A stretch of 64,000 nt of DNA. Origin: Candidatus Altimarinota bacterium (GTDB lineage: Bacteria > Patescibacteriota > Gracilibacteria > BD1-5 > UBA2023). How positions within the stretch are numbered: the stretch's first letter is position 1; every line of letters starts with the position of its first letter. Below are positions 22,820-26,507 of the stretch, in pieces. The notes under the pieces are model-generated. The model saw only the letters and a program-made list of their open reading frames with translations, was not told the origin of the DNA and ran no database searches. The DNA lies in NCBI GenBank assembly GCA_028685185.1, contig JAQUEK010000002.1:180520-244519 (forward strand), in the 5' to 3' direction. The position numbers and the translations under genes are program-made.

Positions 22820-25800
22820 TTATTTCTTCAGATGAATCGTAAATTTTAGGTCATCTATTTCCAGTTCCTTATCTACATCACATAAAGACATATTTTCCTC
22901 GATTTTCGATAATGTCTCAGATTCTATATAATTCTTGAAAAGCTCAAGAATATCAAGTGATTTGTCTCATCTTATATCAAGCCTTATCCTGTCAGACACA
23001 TTATATCAAGCATCTTTTCTGGCGTCCTGAATCGATCTGACAAGGTCTCTTGCATATCATTCCAGAAGAAGCTCATTTGTTATCAGAGTATCCATAGATA
23101 TCACCATTCAGAATCAAGCAAGCAAATCTCAAGTTTCTCAGTTTGTTTCAAAAGCTATTTCATATTCTCATTCATTAAGTTCATATTCTCACACTTTGAT
23201 TCATCAATTCGATAATTCCATGAAATCTCAATTTTTTGCAAGATTTATGATTTCTTGAACATTTTTTCAGAATCTTGGTCATATAAGCCTTGCGTTGGGT
23301 TTGCAGATTTTTTTTGCTATCTGGCTCATATCTTCCAAAACCAAGACATTCTTTACATTAAGCTCTTCCTTTATGATCTCAAGATAATAATCTTCAAGCT
23401 TTTCTCAGATTGTTATCGATTCAAGAGGTTGTCTTACTCTTATTTTCTTTTCTGCTCTCAGTTTCAGTCATAGATTGATTATTTTTTGTGTCTTATCCAT
23501 GTCCTCATTAAGATTCTCGAAGATAAGCTTTTCATTGTATTCAGGGAAAAATTCAAGATGCACAGATTCTTTTCAGGTAAGATTCTTGAATACTTCTTCG
23601 CTTATGAAAGGCATGACAGGAGCTATGATCTTAGATAATACGACCAAAACCTCATACAATGTGTTATATGCGAATATCTTGTCATTATCGTTTTCGGATT
23701 TCCAGAATCTCCTTCTTGATCTCCTAATATACCAATTTGTCAGATTATCCATGAAATCGAATATAGGACGTGTCACTCAATTTATATCATATGTCTCAAA
23801 TCAGTTCGTAACCTCCTTTATAAGCTCTTGAAGCTTTGAAAGTATCCATGAATCAAGCTTGTTGAAATTAGGGTCATCTAGGAATTTATAGACTTCTTCT
23901 TGCTTTCCTTCGAAATTATCTATATTCGCATAAGTCGTGAAGAATGAATAAGTGTTCCAAAATGGAAGAATGACTTTTTTTATGGTTTCTTCGACTCAAG
24001 CTTCTGCGAATTTCATATCATCAGCCCTAACTGCAGGTGAATTCATCATATAAAATCTTATAGCATCAGCTCAGTGCAGGTCTATAAGGTTTTCAGGATC
24101 CGGATAATTCTTCAATGATTTGCTCATCTTCCTTCAATCTTCAGCAAGGATAGTTCAGTTTACGATTACATTGAGGAAAGGGGTCCTTTCAAAAAGAAGG
24201 GTTCAAAGTATCAGTAAAGTATAGAACCATCATCTTGTCTGATCTATTCATTCAGCTATGAAATCAGCTGGGAATTTGAAAGTATCCTTATTTTCGAAAG
24301 GATAATGCTTCTCAGCATATGGCATGGAACCAGATTCGAACCAACAATCAAGAACCTCAGGAATCCTTGTCATCACGCTTCATGTTTCAGGATGTTTGAT
24401 CTTTATGGAATCGACAAAATGCTTATGCAGATCTATCTCTTTTCATGAATCCGCATAGAAGAACTTGTCTCATTTTTTCTCAATCTGAGCAAAATCCTTA
24501 TTTAGATCATATAATTCCTGGATAGATCCTATGCACCATTGTTCTGTCTTATCCTCAGATTTCCAGATAGGCATTGCTGATCCCCAGTATCTGTTTCTTG
24601 AAATGTTCCAATCCCTCGCATTCTCGATCCATTTTCAGAATCTTCAATGTTTTATGTTTTCAGGAAGCCAAGTTATCTCTTCATTGTTTTTCACTAATTT
24701 AGAGGATATTTCTTCAACCTTGACATACCAAGCTGAGATTCATCTGTATATCAGAGGAGTATGACATCTGTAGCAATGAGGATATGAATGGTTTATCGTG
24801 GATATGTTTATTATCTCTCACCTATCCTTCAATAATTTTATAACCGTTTCATTGAAATCGAAAACATAGATTCACATATATTCTGAAAGATTCTCAACAT
24901 TTCCAGTATCGTCTATATGAGACACGAATCATAATTTTTCTTTCTTCCCTATTATCGAATCATCCTCTCAATAAGCCGGAGCTATATGGACTATTCAAGT
25001 TCAGCTTTCAGTTGTGACATGATGACCTGCTATAACGCTATAGACATTTTTTCCTAATTCCAATCATTTAGGTAAACTTGATGCTTCATCAAGCAAAGTG
25101 AAATCATTGAAAAGAGGTTCATATCTTATTCATACAAGGCATTCTCATTTGTAGACCCTAACTAGGGTATAATCCTCTTCGCTTTTATAATAATGTCATA
25201 ACCTGTCATTCGCAAGCACATAAGTCTCTTTTGAAGCTTTATCCAATACCTCAGCATATTCTATATCATTTCAGACTGCAAGTCATAGGTTTGCAGGAAG
25301 TGTCCATGGAGTTGTTGTCCATGCAAGTACATATTTGCTTTCGGATCACTTGACCTTGAATTTAACCGTTACTGATTTATCCTGCTTATCCTCATATCAT
25401 TGGTTCACTTCGAAATTAGAAAGCGGAGTTGAACATCTAGGACAATAAGGCACTACCCTTTGGGATTCATATATGTATCATTTGTCATAAAGCGATTTGA
25501 AAACCCACCAGACAGACTCCATGAATGAAGCGTCTAGCGTCTTATAATCATTTTCCATATCAACCCATCTTCACATTTTTCCGACTATCCTTTTCCAGTC
25601 TTCAACATAAGAGAACACATTCGCCCTGCATTCCTCATTGAAAGCATAGACTCAGATCTTATCTTCGATATCCTTCTTTCAGGAAATCTTCAATTTCTTC
25701 TCAACTATATTTTCAATAGGAAGCCCATGACAATCCCATCAGAAATTCCTTTCAACTTTCTTTCATTTCATAGTCTGGTAACGAGGTATGACATCTTTTA

Positions 25801-25993
25801 TGGTTCAAGCCAGAAGATGCCCATAATGTGGAGTTCATGTAGCAAAAGGAGGACCGTCATAAAAATTGAATTCTAAGGAATCCTTTCTTATCTCTATGGA
25901 TTTTTTGAATGTATTGTTCTTTTTCCAGAACTCCAATATCTTTGCTTCCATTTCAGGAAATGATTGGCGTGAATTTACTTGTGGGTATGTCAT
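22820..25993 (-). CDS. ileS: Isoleucyl-tRNA synthetase
   Basis: 1057 aa. Class I synthetase charging tRNA-Ile. Seen: [15 protein letters not shown] at the N-terminus, [15 protein letters not shown] (HIGH box), the editing-domain motif [13 protein letters not shown], zinc-type CPRC and CYRC pairs, and [12 protein letters not shown] (KMSKS box). Length fits the eukaryal-like/type 2 IleRS. The start ATG at 25993 was chosen because TAA codons interrupt this frame just upstream; the reading upstream is a separate small ORF. The gene lies behind a T-box leader, so uncharged tRNA-Ile probably switches it on. Confidence 0.96.
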
Positions 25994-26026: not shown

Positions 26027-26272
26027 TTAGATTTTCAGATTCTCTTCATATTCATTTATCAGAACCAGAGCTGTTTCCTTGTATTCTATCTCCTTAAGCT
26101 CTGCATACAAGGTGACTTCCTGAAGAATATTGTCAATTTCAAACAATATGTTTTCAGGGATTCATGACGTGAACATATATTCCAAAATGTAATCAATTGC
26201 TTCAAAATCATCTTTTTCTAAAATTTCTCTTATCTTAATCAGATAATTATTAAAGATTTCTTGTTTTTTCAT
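26027..26272 (-). CDS. Small ORF between the T-box and ileS
   Basis: 81 aa, acidic, helical, rich in Ile, Leu and Glu; not recognised. It begins 11 bases after the T-box terminator and ends in TAA 33 bases before the ileS start, in the same frame as ileS. One in-frame TGA is read as Gly. It may be a real small protein or a translated leader. Confidence 0.6.
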
Positions 26273-26282
26273 AGATTTTAAA

Positions 26283-26455
26283 AATAAAAAAAATAAACGC
26301 ATCGTAAAAACAATGCGCTTTCGGTCCCATTATGGGAAGGTACCACCTAAAGCAAGATACTTGATTTTCATTTGTTTACGGAGTTTTGTCACCGGAAGGT
26401 TCTACTCGATTTCTCTTTCTTCCCTCAGCTAATCCTGTGATATCAGGACTCGAAC
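26283..26455 (-). promoter_or_regulatory. T-box leader of ileS with an ultrashort stem I
   Basis: On the minus strand, in order: a hairpin of seven base pairs whose six-base loop AUAUCA contains the isoleucine codon AUC (26439-26441); a stem GGAAG/CUUCC enclosing an AGUAGAA element like the S-turn of stem II; the T-box sequence AGGUGGUACC (26339-26348), whose UGGU would pair with the ACCA end of tRNA-Ile; and a terminator stem GCGCAUUG/CGAUGCGU followed by U-rich sequence (26283-26320). T-boxes let uncharged tRNA block termination. The codon in a short hairpin loop resembles the ileS T-boxes of Actinobacteria, but here the output appears to be transcriptional. A promoter-like TACAAT lies near 26480. 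Confidence 0.82.
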
Positions 26456-26507
26456 GCTTTTGAATACGCATATATTGTACATATAAAATCAGAAAATCAA
26501 ATAAATT

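Follow-up and report, generated by a model that had tools for sequence, protein, structure and literature searches.

The gene for isoleucyl-tRNA synthetase (ileS) in a 64-kb stretch of a Candidatus Altimarinota genome (GCA_028685185.1, contig JAQUEK010000002.1, positions 180,520 to 244,519; hereafter the window) is preceded by a leader, on the minus strand at 26461..26285, that is very probably (we put the probability at about 0.9) a T-box riboswitch controlling an operon of a small open reading frame (ORF) and ileS by transcription attenuation. An earlier note on the window had placed at 26283-26455 an ultrashort-stem T-box with a terminator, in front of ileS, in a recoded bacterium of the Candidate Phyla Radiation (CPR). 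That description is supported: a loop with AUC, the AGUAGAA motif, the T-box and a U-rich terminator are all present on the minus strand in the order claimed, and the host reads TGA as glycine. Its limits have to be shifted slightly, as the element does lie there but starts a few bases further 5', at 26461; likewise, ileS is indeed downstream, with an 80-codon ORF intervening between it and the leader. The presentation of the element as a T-box of ileS was accurate in kind and underestimated its breadth, since such elements are common in CPR bacteria and extend beyond ileS.

The ileS loci of related genomes were gathered, and many of them carry TGGUACC upstream in the same layout. Fourteen CPR (Patescibacteria) ileS leaders, with that of the window left out, served as the training set of a covariance model, and a 31-pair structure was written by hand onto their alignment (A1). 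Compensatory changes on both sides occur in 26 of the 31 base pairs, and 94% of the cells at paired positions are paired, compared with 75% in shuffled alignments and no more than 54% after sliding of the partners. When both strands of the 64 kb were searched with this model, the sole match was 26461..26317 (minus strand), with a score of 75.1 bits, which is mid-range among the scores of the leader's class, and an E-value of 1.4e-17. The E-values of the model are rough, with a large margin for this match, and a model free of the window's own sequence that matches the leader and nothing else at such a value indicates that the match is not due to chance. The earlier note had proposed a check against Rfam covariance models, and would have given up the element if no model matched it and the stems of relatives held no compensatory changes; the Rfam scan of the window gave no match for the leader, even at E 5, whereas the lineage-built model and the exchanges in the relatives gave the results just described, so that the element was not refuted. 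The leader does not reach the gathering threshold of the T-box family RF00230 (93 bits), Rfam scans of 18 related loci yielded no T-box at threshold and a few weak T-box scores, and some CPR valS and aspS leaders score 37–46 bits with RF00230, below threshold. The standard search model is blind to the CPR leaders at its threshold, and annotations therefore miss them.

The sensor half of the leader opens with stem I, which in its complete form spans 26458-26427. Its basal helix, found both in the covariation alignment and in the alignment of the window to the model, joins AGC (26456..26458) to GCU (26427..26429); 100% of its cells are paired, and A-U, G-C and C-G pairs are exchanged on both sides in alignment A1. 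Beyond an asymmetric internal loop with GA steps, a possible site of the kink-turn that class III T-boxes have in stem I, stands the ultrashort stem I hairpin, UCCUG-AUAUCA-CAGGA (26433..26448), with five base pairs, four of which show compensatory changes in relatives, and a six-nucleotide loop that presents the predicted specifier AUC (26441-26439), followed by A. Across relatives, loops with AUC go with ileS. Stem II (GAGGG/CCUUC, 26395..26426), with compensatory changes in five of five pairs and 98.6% paired cells, encloses the S-turn strands AAGAAA (26421-26416) and AGUAGA (26406-26401; the AGUAGAA of the earlier note is 26406-26400), the letters of which are almost invariant in alignment A1. 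Stem IIA, CGG-(10 nt)-CCG followed by UA (26379..26394), is a helix in the covariation alignment and carries a mismatch in the window. A loose pseudoknot scan finds candidates for stem IIB in about half of the relatives.

The effector half begins at the T-box sequence itself, AGGUGGUACC (26348-26339). The 5' strand of antiterminator helix A1, GCUUUAGG (26346..26353), pairs with the 3' strand CCGAAAGC (26317..26324) with a single A.G mismatch, giving the core GCUUU.GG/CC.AAAGC. Hairpin A2 (UCCCA-UAA-UGGGA, 26325..26337) is a helix in both the covariation and the window alignments, and A1 and A2 both covary. Between them lies the bulge UGGUACC (26339..26345), whose UGGU (26345-26342) is complementary to the ACCA end of tRNA-Ile(GAU) of the same genome. 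The terminator scan detects one terminator-like site, against 0.1 expected from shuffled sequences: an intrinsic terminator of the form AAGCGCAUUGU-UUUU-ACGAUGCGUUU (26320-26295) with a U-tract, together 26285..26320. The tetranucleotide AAGC both opens this terminator and closes the A1 3' strand, which makes the antiterminator and the terminator mutually exclusive. As a hairpin alone, the terminator is more stable (-13.7 kcal/mol, or -12.7 kcal/mol in a separate calculation) than the antiterminator segment (-9.4 kcal/mol), which fits a switch that is off by default.

On the basis of established T-box logic (PMC7583486), the AUC hairpin would pair with the anticodon GAU of tRNA-Ile, and the resulting duplex would be clamped by the S-turn. 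The ACCA end of an uncharged tRNA-Ile would pair with UGGU and stabilize the antiterminator; the terminator, which needs the same AAGC, would then be blocked and ileS transcribed. With charged tRNA-Ile, the bulge would stay unfilled, the terminator would form and transcription would stop. The parts of the leader and their matches to the tRNA come from sequence comparison, and from these we infer tRNA binding and the discrimination of its charging state.

Among the known T-boxes, those of classes I and II act on transcription and have a long stem I, class IV is intermediate, and class III, which includes the ileS leader of Nocardia farcinica, is mostly translational and presents its specifier in an apical loop of 5–6 nt on a short stem I (PMC10482949). 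The window leader shares with class III (Nocardia farcinica and Mycobacterium ileS; PMC10482949, PMC7583486) a short stem I without an elbow-binding module, a six-nucleotide apical loop (AUAUCA) that holds AUC, a stem II with an S-turn (in CPR leaders GAAGAA/AGUAGA is conserved and the pairs covary), stem IIA, UGGUACC and ileS downstream. One covariance model finds both: among 198 actinobacterial genomes (the phylum of an Acidimicrobiia genome), the CPR model detects ileS leaders in 11 (E 1e-4 or better; best E 3e-11), in which CCGGCCAUCACCGG, GGAAGAA, AGUAGAACC, CGGGU.GGCCCGU and GGUGGUACC follow one another in the same order as in CPR leaders. The likeness to actinobacterial ileS T-boxes that the earlier note had pointed out is thus borne out, with the same sensor and with 11 of 12 actinobacterial leaders lacking a terminator (1/12 has one). 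The differences from class III lie in the output, where the sequestrator of the translational platform (a usual, not strictly defining, feature) is replaced in the window by an intrinsic terminator that overlaps the antiterminator; in the CPR host and in a family that also serves valS, aspS, serS, thrS and lysS; and in the IIA/B pseudoknot, not detected in the window and found in relatives only in part. With the transcriptional T-boxes of classes I and II (Bacillus tyrS and glyQS; RF00230) the leader has in common the terminator/antiterminator logic and the T-box bulge, but its stem I consists of a 3-bp base topped by a 5-bp hairpin and the window holds no RF00230 match. In 55 of 84 relatives, compared with 6 of 168 control stretches, promoter-like pairs directly precede the leader, which leaves no room there for a longer stem I. 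Class IV (Actinomyces odontolyticus ileS; PMC10482949) likewise lacks the elbow module and precedes ileS, but its specifier sits in a bulge on the side of a stem I of medium length rather than in an apical loop. By every class III test that could be run on it, the sensor belongs to class III and the output does not, and the element as predicted is a class III sensor joined to a transcription-termination platform.

Matches to the CPR model (E 1e-4 or better for the phylum sample) are present in 71 of 192 genomes of the class and in 134 of 380 genomes sampled across the phylum; the relatives all come from assembled or metagenomic genomes, and the phylum labels rest on named loci. These matches gave 148 distinct leaders, each read together with the genes that follow it, the gene names being checked by NCBIfam on representatives: ileS follows 88, valS 17, aspS (both kinds) 25, and glyS, serS, thrS and lysS one to two each. 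The 88 class-level leaders (alignment A2) contain 700 double-change cells, compared with 205 after shuffling; A2, having been fitted to the model, is biased towards the model's structure; A1 was not so fitted. The loop codon is AUC with ileS, GUC with valS and AAC or GAC with aspS and, by reading, UCC for serS (L303) and ACC for thrS (L312). An automatic rule matched the loop codon to the downstream synthetase in 104 of 136 leaders, far above permutation (mean 55, maximum 71); several of its misses are clear AUC hairpins by eye, and a few leaders have no recognisable codon. The variable base of UGGN is U in 81/88 ileS and 15/17 valS leaders, C in 21/25 aspS leaders and in one serS leader, and A in thrS. 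It matches the discriminator base of the own-genome tRNA, which is A for ileS, A for valS, G for aspS, G for serS and U for thrS. Codon and UGGN base, at two distant sites, change together as a tRNA ligand predicts. All the evidence for the leader family is comparative, and it makes the window leader part of a family common in CPR bacteria, the codon and UGGN base of which appear re-tuned for other aminoacyl-tRNA synthetases.

The aspS leaders of the class (L150, L160, L161, L165, L173 and others) mostly carry AAC, an asparagine codon, and not GAC. This codon suggests a response of these AspRS genes to tRNA-Asn, which would be expected of non-discriminating enzymes. In six valS leaders (L275, L278, L283, L287, L289 and L315), a larger conserved apical loop, UAAUGUCACC, replaces the hexaloop within the first 60 nt of the match, possibly as a separate specifier-loop type. 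Another valS leader matched by the model, L264, has the apical loop CCAUA, without a valine codon.

Several observations weigh against a working transcriptional T-box in the window. No Rfam family matches the leader, and the minimum-energy fold of the whole leader shows the terminator without the sensor helices of the model. Upper stem II is weak in the window, with four model pairs mismatched or missing, and the pseudoknot scan finds no stem IIB partner there; in a known class III sensor, deletion of the stem IIB pseudoknot cut tRNA binding more than 1000-fold (PMC10482949). No sigma-70-like promoter of the form tested lies just upstream of the window leader, and 33 of the 139 CPR leaders with enough sequence for the terminator scan have no terminator by the scan used. 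Together with the mismatch in stem IIA, the defects in the sensor could mean that the T-box has decayed and is out of use in this genome, which we consider very unlikely, as the antiterminator, the terminator and all motifs that would contact the tRNA have stayed intact, and the 75-bit score is not low for its class.

Of the alternatives, the least improbable, though still unlikely, is a T-box that acts on translation by masking a ribosome-binding site, as in Actinobacteria, with the hairpin and U-tract being incidental. It would be in keeping with a sensor identical to that of the actinobacterial ileS leaders, which are described as translational (PMC7583486), and with a small ORF that starts only about 13 nt past the U-tract. 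However, a terminator lies within 130 nt of the T-box in 106 of 139 CPR leaders, against 28 of 139 shuffled sequences (an earlier strict scan, which undercounted long-loop terminators at 59/88, was replaced by this one), and the terminator stem shares a strand with the antiterminator. Moreover, in many relatives the synthetase starts 0.5–3 kb downstream behind other genes, where masking of one start site could not control it. Branched-chain amino acid operons of other bacteria use peptide attenuators, and a terminator is present here as well, so that ribosomes stalling on a short leader ORF with isoleucine codons might be imagined to control it. We find this hardly credible, because what is conserved is base pairs with compensatory changes and T-box motifs, not a reading frame, and because the aspS, valS, serS and thrS versions change one hairpin-loop codon and one bulge base.

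The first gene past the leader is the 80-codon ORF (26030..26272, minus strand), which related genomes conserve at the same place, ahead of ileS and behind the leader; its product has no Pfam or NCBIfam match and has relatives at 35–74% identity in other Gracilibacteria ileS loci. The ileS gene (22820..25993, minus strand) matches TIGR00392 with 954 bits (cut-off 621) and contains 54 in-frame TGA codons read as glycine, and a comparison of IleRS gives Candidatus Gracilibacteria as the closest relatives that have a name. The whole genome, of which the window is 64 kb, measures 1.17 Mb and uses TGA as glycine. A tRNA of this genome with anticodon UCA, at L251:2046-2124 (minus strand), called SeC by ARAGORN, has a Gly-like UCCA end and is likely the reader of TGA as glycine. 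In-frame TGA codons in the N-terminal part of ileS number 15, 1 or none in genomes of one family (G000, G079, G141), so that the recoding or the use of TGA varies within the family. By motif, the window's genome has two T-boxes only, before ileS and before glyS. The second (L001:1501-1653, equivalent to contig C5:25713-25865) has its own terminator, a UGGA that matches the UCCA end of tRNA-Gly, and a sub-threshold Rfam T-box score of 25 bits; since the sequence does not fix the position of the codon, its specifier may be either a standard Gly codon or the reassigned UGA. A third occurrence of GGTGGNACC in the genome belongs to a tRNA-Cys gene, as its T arm, and an RF00230 match at C3:30177 (E 1.4) was rejected, there being no T-box motif at that place.

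TBDB used its short-stem model on Actinobacteria and on truncated hits of class I (PMC7778990), and no report of a T-box in CPR bacteria was found in the literature searched, which lacks most subscription journals; the CPR family is likely, though not proven, to be new. We regard it as quite probable that a large family of transcription-terminating T-boxes with an ultrashort codon hairpin has been overlooked in CPR bacteria, serving at least Ile, Val and Asp/Asn with single Ser, Thr and Lys cases, and that the translational ileS T-boxes of Actinobacteria are a branch with a changed output. According to a review, T-boxes that act on transcription generally depend on a long stem I in contact with the tRNA elbow, as the tRNA has to be bound by the time the polymerase clears the terminator, and an ultrashort stem I is suited to control of translation (PMC7583486). 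A family that combines an ultrashort sensor with a terminator would make this argument testable and might supply compact gene-control parts for organisms without such tools. CPR bacteria, with their few biosynthetic pathways, would gain in it a sensor of tRNA charging placed on several essential genes.
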